This document shows positions 6,813-54,298 of a stretch of 64,000 bases of DNA, one piece after another. Source of the stretch: Roseovarius litoreus (GTDB taxonomy: Bacteria > Pseudomonadota > Alphaproteobacteria > Rhodobacterales > Rhodobacteraceae); contig NZ_FRCB01000005.1 in assembly GCF_900142765.1 (NCBI RefSeq), positions 62,001-126,000 on the forward strand. The letters run 5' to 3'. Numbering within the stretch: position 1 is the first letter of the stretch; each line of letters starts with the position of its first letter. Made by a program: the position numbers and the translations under genes. The notes beneath the pieces are model-generated. The model had not been told where the DNA came from, made no database searches, and worked only from the letters and a program-made list of their open reading frames with translations.

Positions 6813-8570
<1,758 letters not shown>

Positions 8571-21522: not shown

Positions 21523-22305
21523 TCACGCGTCGAGCGTGATCCAGATCGGGACGTGATCGGACGGCTTCTCGCGGCCACGAATGTCGCGGTCGATCTGGCA
21601 GTCGCCGAGCAGATCTGCGGCTTGTGGCGTCAGCAGGAAATGGTCGATCCTTATTCCATCGTCGCGGTTCCACGCGCCTGCCTGGTAATCCCAGAACGTG
21701 TAATGGCCCGGCCCCTGATGAAAGGCGCGGAACGCCTCTGTGAACCCCAGATTCACGATCCGGCGGAACGCCGCGCGGGTTTCGGGCAGGGCGAGGGCAT
21801 CCTTGCGCCAAGCCTCGGGGCGTTTGGCGTCCTCGTCCTGGGGAATCACGTTGTAATCCCCGGCCATGAGTGCTGGTTCCTCGGCGGCCAGCAGCGCCTC
21901 GGCGCGGGCCTTGAGCCGCTCCATCCACGCAAGCTTGTAGTCATATTTCGGCCCCGGCGCCGGATTGCCGTTGGGCAGATAGAGCCCACAGACCCGGACG
22001 GCGGTCTTGTCTCCGATCACGGTGCCTTCGATCCAGCGCGCCTGTTCGTCCTCATCGTCGCCGGGCAAGCCGCGTGTGACATCCTCCAGGGGCAGCCGCG
22101 ACAGGATCGCCACGCCGTTGAAGCTTTTCTGGCCATGCGTTTCCACCCGGTAGCCACGATCCTCGAAAAGCTCGCAGGGAAAGCCCTCATCGACCGACTT
22201 GATTTCCTGCAGGACGACGACATCAGGCTGCGCCTCGTCCAGCCAATCGGTAAGGGCCTGCGCACGGGCCTTGATGCCGTTGATGTTGAAACTGGCGATT
22301 TTCAT
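21523..22305 (-). CDS. xthA: exodeoxyribonuclease III / AP endonuclease
   Basis: A 260-residue base-excision-repair nuclease of the EEP fold. Landmarks: MKIASFNINGIKAR at the start, catalytic glutamate in VVLQEIKS (about residue 34), GVAILSRLP, metal-site residues in MAGDYNVIP (about 151-159), and the final DHVPIWITLD with the catalytic Asp-His. It cleaves DNA 5' to abasic sites and degrades 3' ends. Convergent with the monooxygenase gene (12-base gap). Length is normal. Confidence 0.95.
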   Translation of the reverse strand: MKIASFNINGIKARAQALTDWLDEAQPDVVVLQEIKSVDEGFPCELFEDRGYRVETHGQKSFNGVAILSRLPLEDVTRGLPGDDEDEQARWIEGTVIGDKTAVRVCGLYLPNGNPAPGPKYDYKLAWMERLKARAEALLAAEEPALMAGDYNVIPQDEDAKRPEAWRKDALALPETRAAFRRIVNLGFTEAFRAFHQGPGHYTFWDYQAGAWNRDDGIRIDHFLLTPQAADLLGDCQIDRDIRGREKPSDHVPIWITLDA

Positions 22306-22453: not shown

Positions 22454-22462
22454 TGTGGATAA
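22454..22462 (-). promoter_or_regulatory. DnaA box (perfect consensus)
   Basis: TGTGGATAA on the plus strand, that is TTATCCACA on the minus strand, identical to the classical DnaA box. It is directly followed by the AT-rich AAGTTTATATAC. Whether it binds DnaA in the cell is untested. Confidence 0.55.
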
Positions 22463-22540: not shown

Positions 22541-22549
22541 TGTGGAAAA
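22541..22549 (-). promoter_or_regulatory. DnaA box (one mismatch, TTTTCCACA)
   Basis: TGTGGAAAA on the plus strand, that is TTTTCCACA on the minus strand, a common relaxed DnaA box. Same orientation as the box 87 bases to the left; 83 bases upstream of the repeat-protein gene. Confidence 0.45.
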
Positions 22550-22631
22550 CTCGGTTAGGTAGAATTTCCAATTGAAAAACAATTTAAACGTGCAATCGTC
22601 AGGGGGCTGCAACCTAACCTGGGAGACTGAC

Positions 22632-22928
22632 ATGCTTGCTTTGAAAACCCTCGAAATCGAAACCCTGGCCCATGTCGGCGAAACCGTCGCCAACCTGCAT
22701 GACGGCTCCGCCGTCGAGGCCTTCACTTCGTCCATCGGTCCGGTGACAAGTGCCAATATGTTCGCCGGCGATGCGGTCGACGTGTTCACGTCGTCCATCG
22801 GCCCGATCACTACAGGCGAAGCCATCCGTGGCGACGCGGTCGAGGCGTTCACCTCCTCCATCGGTCCCGTCACCTCGGGCGAGGCCGCGCTTGGCGATCT
22901 GGTTCAGGCGTTCACCTCGAGCATCTGA
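22632..22928 (+). CDS. 98-residue repeat protein, candidate multi-core precursor peptide
   Basis: The start ATG 22632 has GGGAGA five bases upstream. The protein has a 24-residue leader-like segment (MLALKTLEIETLAHVGETVANLHD) in which I stop quoting after the first twenty residues as MLALKTLEIETLAHVGETVA, then three 21-residue repeats and a final 11-residue partial copy. The repeat pattern is G-[DS]-x-V-x-x-FTSSIGP-[VI]-T-x-x-x-x-x-x; the last copy stops at FTSSI, the protein C-terminus. There is no cysteine, signal peptide or membrane segment. Ser/Thr-rich repeats after a leader recall precursors of modified peptides; a structural or phase-forming protein is the alternative. It is followed after 52 bases by the 361-residue gene. 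Confidence 0.75.
   Translation: MLALKTLEIETLAHVGETVANLHDGSAVEAFTSSIGPVTSANMFAGDAVDVFTSSIGPITTGEAIRGDAVEAFTSSIGPVTSGEAALGDLVQAFTSSI
22704..22925 (+). repeat. 63-bp coding repeats (3.5 copies)
   Basis: Units at 22704-22766, 22767-22829, 22830-22892 and a partial 22893-22925. The DNA copies have drifted mostly at synonymous sites: the shared FTSSI is written ttc act tcg tcc atc, then with acg tcg tcc, acc tcc tcc and acc tcg agc in its middle codons. The repeat is therefore old and conserved as protein, not as DNA. Confidence 0.85.
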
Positions 22929-22980
22929 GCCATGGGCGAAACGGACCCTTCATCAACCTGCCTTACAAGGGATAGAGCCC

Positions 22981-24066
22981 ATGGGAGATATCGTTCGACT
23001 GAATGTTCCGTTTCGCCGACCCGCCAAGATGTCGGGACAGGCGGCGCTTGTGACGACCTTCGCAACGCAGCGCCGCCACCGCGACGACGTTTTCTGGATG
23101 AAGGAAAACGCCGAATTGCTCAACGTACTCGAGACAACCGGCTCTCTGCCCAAGCCAGACGCGCTTGCGGTGCATCTGGCCTTTTATGAAGACATCGAAA
23201 ACCGTCTTGGGTTTTTTCCGCAATATTACCGTTTCTTGCTGTCCATCTGCCTTGATCTCGAAGACCTCGGAATTGGCGGGGCAAAAGGCGAAAAGCTGGT
23301 CCATTGGGTCATGACCGAGGGTCTTGCCGAGGCCGAGCTTTCAGACCTCCAGCGCGCCGAAGCTCGGCGGCTTTGCCTGCGACGCGGGGTCGATCCGCTG
23401 CCGCATGATGTCGGTTTGAATGACCGGTTGCGGGGCTTTGCGCGGCGCTCGGCAACATTTGCCATGCCGAACAAGAAAGCAGCCTATGAGCTGACGCATA
23501 TTGTATTCTACCTCTCCGAATATGGCCGCCGCGATCCCGGTCTGGATGAGGTGTTCCTGGACAGCCTGTTCTTTGCCGGAACGCTGGCCTTCCTCGACAT
23601 GAACCTCGATCTTTTGTCCGAAATCTGTATCGCGCTGCGCTTTGCCGGGGCCACGCCGCCGGACATATGGGAGCGTTGGATCCGCGATCAGGCGGCGCGG
23701 TTCCGCATCAACTCTGTCGACGCCGCGGCCGGGCCGGACGATTATCACTCGTTTCTGATGGCCAACTGGCATCTGGCGCTGGCCGGGCAGGGTGGGTTCT
23801 CCCTTGCCGTGCCCGAGGGCCCGCTTGCGTTTCGCCACGTCCCTTCAGGGCAAGGCCCGTTGCGGGAATTGTCCGAGTGCATGTATGGCCTGGGCGACAG
23901 GCGCAGCGCGGACTGGCTCGTGATGAAAGCGGCGATCCATGACAAACTCTCGTCCGAGGCCCGGTCCGTCCTTGCCCTGGCCGAGGCGGCCACCGACAGG
24001 TTTGATGCCTTCTTCGCCGGATTTGCCCGCACGGGTCTGGCCCGTCTCGGCGGAGATCGGTCTTGA
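22981..24066 (+). CDS. 361-residue protein of unknown function, possible peptide-modifying enzyme
   Basis: ATG 22981 follows AAGGGA at a good distance. The protein is soluble and mainly helical, with no signal peptide. The most motif-like parts are ELTHIVFYLSEYG (about residues 170-182), FLDMNLDLLSEICIALRFAG (~205-224) and DDYHSFLMANWHLALAG (~253-269). His173, Asp209, His256 and His264 are candidate metal or catalytic residues. From memory, a THxVFYL-[ST]-[DE]-[FY]-G pattern followed by an acidic helix and a YHxxLM segment occurs in uncharacterised families, and I believe Rhodobacterales members carry a DUF6902 label; I cannot confirm this. It lies between the repeat protein and an exporter, with a 4-base overlap to the latter. 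Confidence 0.7.
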   Translation: MGDIVRLNVPFRRPAKMSGQAALVTTFATQRRHRDDVFWMKENAELLNVLETTGSLPKPDALAVHLAFYEDIENRLGFFPQYYRFLLSICLDLEDLGIGGAKGEKLVHWVMTEGLAEAELSDLQRAEARRLCLRRGVDPLPHDVGLNDRLRGFARRSATFAMPNKKAAYELTHIVFYLSEYGRRDPGLDEVFLDSLFFAGTLAFLDMNLDLLSEICIALRFAGATPPDIWERWIRDQAARFRINSVDAAAGPDDYHSFLMANWHLALAGQGGFSLAVPEGPLAFRHVPSGQGPLRELSECMYGLGDRRSADWLVMKAAIHDKLSSEARSVLALAEAATDRFDAFFAGFARTGLARLGGDRS

Positions 24067-24980
24067 AGCGCGTGCTCTTGGCCGCTCCCGCCGCAATCGG
24101 GGCGGGGTTGATGGTGCTCTACACGCTGCTGATCACGGGTGCCGATGCGATCACCAAGGCCTTTGCCGCCTCCTATGCCGCGCCGCAACTCTTTGCGGTG
24201 TCGGGCGGCATCGTGGCCGGGCTGAGCCTTTTGGCCACGCGCGTCTTGCGCGATGACAGGGGTGTGCGCACGCATGCGCCGCGCGCCATGGCGCTACGCT
24301 CGGTGACAACGGTGGCCGGGGCGGTGGCGTTTTTCCATGCCTTTCGGCTTTTGCCGTTCGCCGAGGTGTTCCTGTTCATCGCGCTCATCCCGATCTTTGC
24401 CGGCATTCTGTCCGGGCCCGTCCTGTCCGAGCCGGTGCGCCCGCAGGCATGGGGCGGTCTTGCTCTGGCCAGCATGGGGGTCTTGGTCCTCTTTCCCTCG
24501 GGCCTGTCGTCTATTGGCCTCGGGCATCTCGTGGCGTTGCTGGCGGCCTTGCTTGGCACGGTATCGATGTTGGCGGCGCGCTATATCTGCCGGATCGAAA
24601 GCAATCTTCTGGCACAGGTCTTCTATCCCAATGCCGCATTGATGGTGGTGATGGCCCTGGCCTTGCCCTTCGTGTTTCAGCCCATGCCCTTGAAGGATTT
24701 GGCTTGGGCCTTCAGCTATGGCGTGATTCTTTTCGGGGCACGGTGGGTGCTTGTGGGTGCGATGCGGGTGATGCCTGCCTATGTGGTCACACCGCTCATC
24801 AACCTGCAATTTCTGTGGATGGTGCTGTTCGGCATTCTGTTCTTCGCAGAGACACCCGCCGCGTCGGTCTTTCTGGGGGCCGGGTTGATGATCGCAGCAA
24901 GCGCCATGCTGATGCGCGATCAGTTGCGCTTGCGGCCGATGCCTGCGTCACGCCCCAAATCCGTGGTCCCGGCCGAGTGA
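24063..24980 (+). CDS. EamA/DMT-family transporter
   Basis: A 305-residue membrane protein with about ten hydrophobic helices in two EamA-type halves (first half includes FFHAFRLLPFAEVFLFIALI, second VTPLINLQFLWMVLFGILFF). DMT transporters usually export small metabolites or amino acids. TTG 24063 overlaps the preceding stop and has GGAG seven bases upstream; a GTG at 24072 is an alternative. The overlap suggests co-expression with the repeat protein and the 361-residue protein. An intact 98-residue protein would be too large for this family, so the cargo may be a processed product or an unrelated metabolite. Confidence 0.88.
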   Translation: MKRVLLAAPAAIGAGLMVLYTLLITGADAITKAFAASYAAPQLFAVSGGIVAGLSLLATRVLRDDRGVRTHAPRAMALRSVTTVAGAVAFFHAFRLLPFAEVFLFIALIPIFAGILSGPVLSEPVRPQAWGGLALASMGVLVLFPSGLSSIGLGHLVALLAALLGTVSMLAARYICRIESNLLAQVFYPNAALMVVMALALPFVFQPMPLKDLAWAFSYGVILFGARWVLVGAMRVMPAYVVTPLINLQFLWMVLFGILFFAETPAASVFLGAGLMIAASAMLMRDQLRLRPMPASRPKSVVPAE

Positions 24981-25026: not shown

Positions 25027-25350
25027 TTACATCGAAAAAGATGTTCCGCAACCGCAAGAGCTGCTGGCATTGGGATTGTCGATGGTGAAACGCGCGCCGA
25101 TCAGTTCCTCGGTGAAGTCGATGGTGGCACCGGCCAGAAACGGCAGCGAGACACTATCCACGACCACCTTTTGCCCCAAACCTTCGAGAACAAGATCGTC
25201 CTCGGCGGGCTGATCCAGCCGGATGTCATACTGAAAACCCGAACATCCGCCACCTTCCACGGCGATGCGAAGAGCCTGACCCTGATCGCCGGCGCCTATT
25301 TCGCTAAGGCGGGAGAAAGCGCGCTCTGTCACTTTCGGGGGCAATTGCAT
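25027..25350 (-). CDS. erpA: iron-sulfur cluster insertion / A-type carrier protein
   Basis: A 107-residue A-type carrier that hands Fe-S clusters to target enzymes. The three conserved cysteines are visible: one in EGGGCSGFQY (about residue 36) and two in SSCGCGTSF (about residues 99-101). Length and motif order fit ErpA/IscA; the ErpA name is preferred from the GGGCSGFQY form, but IscA or SufA cannot be excluded. No other isc/suf gene is nearby. It is divergent from dgt with about 68 bases between them. Confidence 0.88.
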   Translation of the reverse strand: MQLPPKVTERAFSRLSEIGAGDQGQALRIAVEGGGCSGFQYDIRLDQPAEDDLVLEGLGQKVVVDSVSLPFLAGATIDFTEELIGARFTIDNPNASSSCGCGTSFSM

Positions 25351-41039: not shown

Positions 41040-41834
41040 ATGACGGCATTGAACAAGGGGCGCTACTCGGCACGGATCGCACAGAGTGCGGCCGATCTGG
41101 TTGCCTGCCAGCGGCTCAGGGCGCTGGCCTTTCTGAAATCCACCGATCCCGACCGGCTGGACCGCGATCCGTTCGACGCGACCTGCTCGCATTTCATGGT
41201 CGAAGAGCAGCATAGCGGCCGTCTGGTGTGCTGCTTTCGTCTGCTGCACCTGACAGGCGGCGCCGAGATCGAGCGCAGCTATTCGGCGCAATTCTATGAA
41301 TTGTCGGCCTTGTCCGCCTTCGAGGGTCCGATGATCGAACTTGGGCGATTCTGTATCCATCCAGACATGCGCGACCCCGATATCCTGCGTGTCGCATGGG
41401 GGGCCATGACGCGCTATGTCGATCAGCACGGGGTCGAGATGCTGTTCGGCTGTTCGTCCTTTCAAGGCGTCGATGCCGAGACCTATCTGGATGCCTTCGC
41501 GATGCTTGCGGCACGCCATATCGCACCGCGTCGCTGGCTGCCCCGGATCAAGGCACCCTCGGTCTTTCGATTCGCGCAAAAGCTTGCCCGCCGCCGGCCC
41601 GACACAAGACTGGCCATGCTGCGGATGCCGCCCTTGCTGCGGACCTATCTCTTGATGGGCGGGTGGGTCAGCGATCATGCCGTGGTCGATCGCCAGCTGG
41701 ATACGCTGCATGTGTTCACCGGGCTGGAAATCGCCGCCATTCCGGATGCGCGCAAGCGGCTGTTGCGCGCCGTGGCGGCCCCCTCCGGCGATCCCGTGAT
41801 GCACCGACGCGATACCGACGTGATACCGACGTGA
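41040..41834 (+). CDS. olsB: L-ornithine N-alpha-acyltransferase (ornithine lipid synthesis)
   Basis: A 264-residue GNAT-fold acyltransferase that transfers a 3-hydroxyacyl group from ACP to ornithine, the first step to phosphate-free ornithine lipids. Landmarks: RYSARIAQSAADLVACQRLR, the conserved MIELGRFCIHPDMRD (about residues 98-112) and LFGCSSFQGVDAE. ATG 41040 is chosen (MTALNKGRYS). The last residues (TDVIPT) are encoded by the 11-bp tandem repeat at 41803. The usual second-step gene olsA does not follow. Confidence 0.9.
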   Translation: MTALNKGRYSARIAQSAADLVACQRLRALAFLKSTDPDRLDRDPFDATCSHFMVEEQHSGRLVCCFRLLHLTGGAEIERSYSAQFYELSALSAFEGPMIELGRFCIHPDMRDPDILRVAWGAMTRYVDQHGVEMLFGCSSFQGVDAETYLDAFAMLAARHIAPRRWLPRIKAPSVFRFAQKLARRRPDTRLAMLRMPPLLRTYLLMGGWVSDHAVVDRQLDTLHVFTGLEIAAIPDARKRLLRAVAAPSGDPVMHRRDTDVIPT

Positions 41835-41846
41835 TACCGACATGCG
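41803..41846 (-). repeat. 11-bp tandem repeat array A
   Basis: Four units read on the plus strand as ACCGACGCGAT, ACCGACGTGAT, ACCGACGTGAT, ACCGACATGCG; the minus strand carries the consensus GTCGGTATCAC seen in arrays B and C. It spans the olsB stop codon. Confidence 0.85.
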
Positions 41847-43740: not shown

Positions 43741-43784
43741 GTCGGTATTGCGTCGGTATCACGTCGGTATAACGTCGGTGCTGT
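43741..43784 (+). repeat. 11-bp tandem repeat array B
   Basis: GTCGGTATTGC, GTCGGTATCAC, GTCGGTATAAC, GTCGGTGCTGT: four consecutive units between the uup stop and the channel ATG, which follows one base after the last unit. The array thus occupies the 5' leader and any ribosome-binding position of the channel gene. Confidence 0.85.
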
Positions 43785-54205: not shown

Positions 54206-54254
54206 CGAGTCGTCGAATCACCCGCTTTCGCCTTGGTTAACGGCGCAAAACCGC

Positions 54255-54298
54255 TTCGGTATCGCGTCAGTATCACGTCGGTATCGCATCGGTATCGG
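54255..54298 (+). repeat. 11-bp tandem repeat array C
   Basis: TTCGGTATCGC, GTCAGTATCAC, GTCGGTATCGC, ATCGGTATCGG: four units matching the consensus of arrays A and B, in the non-coding stretch between yidD and trmJ. Units are more diverged than in A. Confidence 0.8.

Follow-up and report, generated by a model that had tools for sequence, protein, structure and literature searches.

Several copies of one core per precursor are found in multi-core ribosomally synthesized and post-translationally modified peptides (RiPPs) such as cyanobactins, repeat graspetides and fungal Kex2-processed repeat proteins. The lasso-peptide epimerase MslH has a fold other than that of the Pfam DUF6902 proteins considered here. 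MslH (PMC10406935) is described as metal-dependent; its outcome, a D-residue introduced into a ribosomal peptide through acid-base chemistry, is also the one proposed below for DUF6902. A lasso-peptide epimerase of the family DUF6895 has been reported by title (Shi et al. 2026, ACS Catalysis; reference 371 of PMC13352647). The system described here is a three-gene operon encoding a repeat peptide, a DUF6902 protein and an EamA transporter, located in a 64,000-nucleotide stretch of the Roseovarius litoreus genome (contig NZ_FRCB01000005.1, positions 62,001 to 126,000; hereafter the window). The interpretation favored on balance is that of a two-gene system of the multi-core RiPP type, with an exporter as an accessory, where each core is modified by DUF6902, probably by epimerization of the backbone.

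The precursor gene, open reading frame (ORF) A, encodes 98 residues on the plus strand from an ATG at 22632 to a stop codon ending at 22928 and is followed after a spacer of 52 bases by ORF B (22981..24066, plus strand, ATG start), which encodes the 361-residue putative core-modifying enzyme. ORF C (24063..24980, plus strand) encodes by Pfam match a 305-residue EamA/DMT-family transporter, a candidate accessory exporter, and overlaps ORF B by 4 bases when read from the TTG at 24063; an alternative GTG start at 24072 would yield 302 residues and no overlap. The outer coordinates, the lengths of 98 and 361 residues, the 52-base spacer and the 4-base overlap agree with a first-pass annotation of the window, which had recognized the three-gene layout and the 21-residue repeats. 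The same annotation described the 361-residue protein as unknown, which was not borne out since ORF B is a full-length member of DUF6902 (PF21843; E-value 7.9e-155, profile positions 1-351 of 351, 515.5 bits versus a cut-off of 27). Literature searched by family name gave no described function for DUF6902, and word searches found no description of a peptide-DUF6902 pair. As far as these searches show the precursor-enzyme pair is undescribed; the repeat partner, uniform cores and residue set of DUF6902 are described here.

The annotation had further stated that no known class fits. Pfam scans of 14 window proteins around the operon (four and ten) and of the three operon proteins revealed no class enzyme of the lanthipeptide, YcaO, radical-SAM or graspetide classes, and neither the B protease nor the C asparagine-synthetase-like cyclase of lasso clusters was among the 14 neighbors; that part of the statement stood, and it is qualified by the homology to DUF6895 presented below together with the title reporting a DUF6895 lasso-peptide epimerase. 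The system resembles the multi-core RiPPs in that a single precursor holds several copies of its core. It differs from them in a copy number that reaches 20, in having only one candidate maturase, and in the lack of a YcaO, ATP-grasp family or subtilisin-type protease among the 14 scanned neighbors. The arrangement is that of RiPPs in general, a precursor beside a dedicated enzyme, with the core as the presumed site of modification.

The distribution of the two families was determined in 295 Rhodobacteraceae genomes, about one per genus, and in 14 control genomes. DUF6902 was present in 82 of the 295, corresponding to 81 of 294 genera, and in 0 of 14 controls. A profile of the repeat peptide, the co-occurrence check suggested by the first-pass annotation, matched 76 of the same 295 genomes, every one within the 82 with DUF6902, and comparison of the genome lists showed that none of the 213 genomes lacking the enzyme has the peptide. 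Three of the six DUF6902 genomes without a profile match (G099, G264 and G283; loci L095, L097 and L108) have a divergent repeat peptide (MMCCS, MMSCS, ALSPSC); no peptide was seen in G288 and G039 (loci L094 and L111), and G139 is a contig-end fragment that was left out of the locus set. The locus set was extended with 80 further relatives, the best of 367, which belong to named records of Rhodobacteraceae or Alphaproteobacteria and whose loci were taken from genome contigs; many among these 80 are Roseovarius, and the nearest enzyme is 82% identical. Four of the 80 named loci (L116, L178, L184 and L186) had no start or stop by rule and were dropped, and the 157 pooled entries yielded 138 distinct DUF6902 enzymes and loci. 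An automatic rule located a repeat peptide within 700 nt upstream in 130 of the 138 loci, with a median gap of 62 nt between peptide stop and enzyme start. Reading by eye added L062, L086, L088, L103 and L104 from among the eight rule misses, for a total of 135 of 138; L060 is unreadable owing to an assembly gap, and L094 and L111 are without a peptide. The results indicate that the operon is real and conserved, and that pairing of the peptide with DUF6902 is nearly obligate and widespread in marine roseobacters, an ecologically important family in which the system occurs in more than a quarter of the sampled genomes. Homologues mostly without a repeat-peptide partner, which the first-pass annotation had named as evidence against its proposal, were not what was found.

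Outside the Rhodobacteraceae, a class sample of 385 genomes (few members sampled per other family) yielded no DUF6902, the 4 genomes over the cut-off all being inside the family; one weak match besides, in G1103, was DUF6895-like. No DUF6902 match was obtained with plasmids. Two loci found apart from the others, L205 and L206, encode divergent DUF6902-like enzymes, each directly preceded by a gene for an STSSF-repeat peptide; EamA is present in L206 as well.

The ORF A peptide begins with a leader-like N-terminus (residues 1-24, ending LHD; 22632..22703, plus strand), delimited by the peptide alignment and with a putative leader role. Four FTSSI cores follow, placed by motif position on the plus strand at 22722..22736, 22785..22799, 22848..22862 and 22911..22925, the fourth being the final five residues of the protein. 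The phenylalanines at residues 31, 52, 73 and 94 are spaced by exactly 21 residues, and the underlying 63-bp unit received a Tandem Repeats Finder score of 169. Leader conservation is modest, with M1, G25 and F31 nearly or fully invariant in an alignment of 31 peptides. The absence of cysteine reported in the first-pass annotation is correct for the window peptide; some relatives have it in their cores (FITSC, FTCGA, MMCCS). Counted with the modal motif, cores number 2-20 per peptide, lie 20 or 21 residues apart in 701 of 830 intervals, with spacings of 8, 13, 15, 17 and 19 also found, and stand at the exact C-terminus in 98 of 129 peptides. No Pfam or NCBIfam family was above cut-off for the window peptide, and assignment of the repeat peptide to a known family was rejected because matches in Pfam, NCBIfam and PHROGs were sub-threshold or low-complexity. 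In two repeat peptides that are long or odd, Herpes_UL35 (L033) and CRAM_rpt (L108) passed the Pfam cut-off by total score only, with no individual stretch passing, and were read as repeat artefacts.

Since a count based on the modal five-residue motif is circular with respect to conservation, units were instead anchored on flanking residues alone (G, five residues, F or Y), which gave 876 units in 126 peptides. The four residues after the phenylalanine (positions +1 to +4) were 97-99% identical inside one peptide and 32-77% identical between peptides. A single tetrapeptide occupied these positions across all units in 113 of the 126 peptides, compared with a mean of 0.7 and a maximum of 5 uniform peptides when units were shuffled among peptides (1000 shuffles); other four-residue windows of the unit were uniform in 4 of 126, 1 of 123 and 1 of 122 peptides. 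Thirty-five kinds of tetrapeptide were found, including SSGS (27), TSSL (21), TSWS (10), TSGS (9) and TSGL (9). Codon identity among copies was 0.41-0.51 at core positions and 0.44-0.68 in the flanks, except for one position with 9 pairs; core codon identity is not above that of the flanks, which indicates that the residues are under selection rather than the DNA homogenized. Between the window peptide and that of its nearest relative, L112, the 20 core codons showed 0 replacements and 4 synonymous changes, versus 15 and 19 in the remainder. The enzymes of L037 and L124 are 94.8% identical, and their peptides carry FTSGS in all 7 copies and FSSGS in all 6, respectively, with third bases mixed. 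On a tree of 126 enzymes at least 49 tetrapeptide changes were required versus a mean of 91 in 300 shuffles, indicating that the code tracks enzyme ancestry yet turns over often. The core code thus changes in unison, copies in one genome being kept the same while lineages differ, an unusual evolutionary pattern in which selection keeps the copies identical but not the lineages, as a recognition code would be expected to show. Together with the modestly conserved leader, cores that are uniform within and variable between peptides correspond to the conserved leader and variable core of RiPPs.

The conserved residues of ORF B are Y169, T172, H173, E180, G182, D210, E214, Y255 and H256. The impression of conserved His/Asp motifs in the first-pass annotation was well founded, with H173, D210, E214 and H256 being some of the best-conserved positions in DUF6902. 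Among 139 DUF6902 sequences, which include the L206 enzyme as the only one of the two divergent enzymes found apart, Y169 was kept in 136, T172 in 137, H173 in 137, G182 in 139, D210 in 137, E214 in 138, Y255 in 136 and H256 in 137. His173 is missing only from the enzymes of L094 and L111, the same two loci without a peptide. The L094 enzyme carries the changes Y169R, T172V, H173R, Y177H, E180G and D210S and retains E214, Y255 and H256 along with many other family residues; the L111 enzyme has lost those positions plus E214, Y255 and H256. Neither locus has EamA directly downstream, and IscA is encoded immediately after the enzyme in both. A residue set that acts on the peptide would be expected to be lost along with it, as is seen here.

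A model of ORF B obtained with AlphaFold2 from an alignment of the window enzyme and 66 of 76 named enzymes was all-helical, with a predicted local distance difference test score (pLDDT) of 91.2 and a predicted template modeling score of 0.89. Foldseek returned nothing at E <= 0.001 with this model, and the search for solved structures related by sequence returned a single match with E 6.5. The best-ranked structural matches were class II terpene cyclases (5bp8, Z 12.6, root-mean-square deviation 3.6, 221 residues aligned with VIA-align), a Z often reached by helical models, followed at lower rank by chain 1ltx_B of a geranylgeranyl transferase complex and complement C3d/C4d. Such Z values may mean a common helical arrangement and nothing more. 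No ATP- or cofactor-binding family was detected in ORF B with Pfam and NCBIfam.

ORF B also matched DUF6895 (4.8e-20, residues 28-230, 72.5 bits versus a cut-off of 23.8). Profile-profile alignment of DUF6902 with DUF6895 (PF21836) by hhalign gave 97.0% and E 9e-11, with alignment over Y-x-x-T-H, D-x-x-x-E and Y-H, indicating that the two families are homologous. In 11 DUF6895 sequences Y169, H173, G182, D210, E214, Y255 and H256 were kept in all 11 and T172 in 10. DUF6902 thereby shares with DUF6895 both descent and putative active-site residues, and may share an L-to-D activity.

Ten DUF6895 loci from other bacterial families, classes and phyla, including Streptomyces, Kitasatospora and Pseudalkalibacillus, were inspected; the matches H5 and H10 lie outside this locus set, and L208 and L209 were below cut-off. 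As with DUF6902, the gene is directly downstream of a small leader-core peptide in 8 of the 10 loci (L202, L203, L204, L210, L211, L212, L213 and L216), the result suggesting that small peptides with a leader and core accompany the wider superfamily. The small ORFs are at 8107-8301 and 8506-8700 in L202, which has two, and at 9943-10368 in L203 and 8269-8679 in L204, where copies are in tandem; others are at 4602-4859 in L210, 4747-4950 in L211, 4708-4902 in L213 and 770-1003 in L216 (reversed). These peptides have a similar leader (LxxSGIIN..T.DQL) and mostly then an aromatic core (GPWYVY, GPWFVL, YVLAWDKYVLVV). They differ from the DUF6902 peptides, which have a short and different leader and 2-20 F-x-x-x-x cores, in having 1-2 cores, several of them GPWYVY-like. 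The two that were scanned had no Pfam match above cut-off, and the group appears to represent a second precursor family. The Streptomyces plasmid loci L214 and L215 each contain two adjacent DUF6895 genes with no small leader-core ORF seen directly upstream and are possibly another cluster type. A similar protein of ~231 residues is encoded upstream of the pair in both, and L215 also has a P450, a 62-residue ORF and a serine-hydrolase gene nearby. No precursor was seen at the DUF6895 locus L207. Among relatives of the carriers in three groups, DUF6895 was present in 1 of 151, 1 of 144 and 1 of 131 genomes, in each case the starting genome only.

In the mechanism proposed, the ribosome would make a chain in which a leader precedes a single five-residue core repeated 2-20 times at intervals (FTSSI four times in the window), and DUF6902, the all-helical relative of DUF6895, would act on each F-x-x-x-x core. 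That DUF6902 is catalytic on the peptide is highly probable from the sequence evidence. The reaction would be a cofactor-independent epimerization at the backbone C-alpha of the F, +1, +2 or +4 residue, with an acid-base (or metal-ligand) set formed by the conserved His173 and His256 together with the acidic D210 and E214. Residues accepted in the core are T/S/V/I/A/C/P/L at +1, G/S/W/A/C/T at +3 and S/L/A/M/C/I at +4, and this free variation of side chains, including glycine, favors a reaction at the backbone over one at a side chain; combined with the DUF6895 epimerase title, it makes epimerization the leading candidate, which we consider somewhat probable. Since epimerization leaves mass unchanged, an ordinary mass-shift assay would miss such a product. 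The modified chain might then be cut into short peptides by a general protease and, where EamA is present, exported by it; both steps are guesses, and cleavage and export in this form are put forward tentatively. The peptides may act as signals or inhibitors specific to a lineage. In this way two Pfam families with little or no characterization gain a definite substrate and a reaction that can be tested, and the enzyme, if truly an epimerase, would offer a compact and apparently cofactor-free means of introducing D-residues into repeated peptides.

Several observations weigh against this interpretation. The residue-loss argument rests on two events only. The identity between DUF6902 and DUF6895 in the hhalign alignment is 18%, indicative of distant homology, so that the link to an epimerase consists of one title and a distant relationship, and homologues may carry out another reaction; we infer chemistry and product alike. 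Units are not all of one tetrapeptide in 13 of the 126 peptides: that of L173 (5216-5926) alternates two core types, FTSGS and FTTSA, and those of L074, L182 and L176 mix FSTSC with FSSGS. The precursor-modifier-exporter layout suggested by the first-pass annotation was upheld for the precursor and modifier and less so for the exporter, EamA being directly downstream of DUF6902 in 117 of the 136 loci with at least 1 kb of sequence there and not in the other 19, from which it follows that the peptide-enzyme pair can do without EamA at this locus and that the transporter is an accessory, not an obligatory part. EamA transporters are not known as classical peptide exporters. The Pfam scans of the 14 neighboring proteins revealed no peptidase and no known peptide-maturation enzyme. 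Finally, of 126 units sampled at one per peptide, 122 have Ser or Thr at position +2, for which a side-chain reaction is also a possible explanation. This last observation leads to the principal alternative, a RiPP-type pair in which DUF6902 catalyzes some other reaction, such as cyclization, dehydration of the central Ser/Thr, modification of the hydroxyl or cleavage after the core. The evidence for peptide-enzyme pairing applies equally to it, the many peptides that end exactly at a core are suited to a core-end cutter, and the best-ranked folds include cyclases, but with Z values common for helical models. Arguing otherwise are the C, N or A found at +2 in a few genomes, the failure to detect an ATP- or cofactor-binding family in ORF B, and the homologous DUF6895 being reported, by title, as an epimerase (PMC13352647 reference). 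A different reaction is considered rather unlikely, and epimerization is retained.

A non-enzymatic role was also considered, in which the repeat protein would serve structure or binding, as a beta-repeat coat, sponge or scaffold, with DUF6902 as a chaperone or partner dedicated to it. The regular spacing of the cores and the resemblance of the DUF6902 fold to C3d-like binding domains are compatible with this role, and the AlphaFold model of the peptide, which shows strands, makes a structural function possible; the pLDDT of that model is 53.6, a low confidence at which it is not usable as a fold. Irregular spacings and a copy number ranging from 2 to 20 are contrary to such a function, as are the lack of a signal peptide on the repeat protein by eye and the partial or whole loss of the Y/T/H/E/D/E/Y/H set in the two peptide-less loci, and this explanation is judged improbable. 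That the repeat ORF merely precedes the DUF gene, as a chance neighbor or relic, has nothing in its favor except the small size of ORF A; the hairpin between ORFs A and B, an attenuator candidate, was not significant (z -1.2). The chance reading is refuted by the pairing counts, with the peptide in 76 of 82 DUF6902 genomes versus 0 of 213 others, and is further contradicted by the core codons of the window and L112 peptides, in which no residue was replaced.

The region upstream of the peptide gene contains the exact box TGTGGATAA (22454..22462, plus strand, 178 nt before the ATG), which we take to be the reverse complement of the DnaA-box consensus TTATCCACA. A second box with one mismatch, TGTGGAAAA, was recognized by eye at 22541..22549 on the plus strand, 91 nt before the ATG. 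Boxes were counted in 125 loci with enough upstream sequence, the window being excluded from the enrichment. In 73 of the 125 loci an exact TGTGGATAA lies no more than 350 nt from the ATG of the peptide. Two exact boxes are found in 35 loci, and in 21 of these they are separated by 76 nt, near -110 and -186. On both strands 121 matches were found in 31 kb of upstream sequence versus 3 in the 1.43 Mb remainder of the same loci. The pattern is not common genome-wide in the genome of the window, where it occurs in 14 places compared with 12 for a reversed-pattern control. The operon is flanked by xthA, and 28 genomes lacking the system were picked by hand as a control, of which 27 had usable flanks; the box was upstream of xthA in 0 of the 27 versus 72 of 121 genomes with the system, indicating that it is not an xthA feature. 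The upstream boxes are DnaA-box-like and strongly enriched, and binding of DnaA is putative. An extended proposal, in which the DUF6902/DUF6895 superfamily would be the basis of a new RiPP class whose stand-alone, cofactor-free epimerase places D-residues in every copy of a lineage-specific tetrapeptide, all 2-20 copies changing code at once so that the peptide acts as a roseobacter identity signal, with transcription tied to DnaA via the paired boxes, is speculative and unlikely to hold in its entirety.

Nearer the gene, upstream comparison identified a conserved element, CAATTTAAACGTGCAATCGT (..CGTGCAAGCGT in relatives), at 22580..22599 on the plus strand. A GTGCAAGCGT-like element lies at approximately -50 (window 22590-22599), where the 7-mer TGCAAGC was found in 45 of the 125 upstream regions compared with a shuffled maximum of 13 for any 7-mer. 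The candidate family-wide promoter motif CAATTTAAACGTG was rejected, being exact in 5 of 125 only, and a sigma-70 scan gave no promoter-like site. A ribosome-binding-site-like GGGAG was seen by eye at 22621..22625 on the plus strand.

The operon is bounded by xthA (21523-22305, minus strand) and an IscA-type gene (25027-25350, minus strand), with ORFs A, B and C the only genes between them. A role in anti-phage defence was rejected on the basis of PADLOC, which gave 0 matches for the three operon proteins. Elsewhere in the window, tandem 11-bp units of ATACCGACGNN are located at 41803-41841, 43741-43779 and 54252-54297. The window has 4 places with the two-unit pattern of ATACCGACGNN, in two arrays, and the genome has 53, compared with 0 for a reversed-pattern control.

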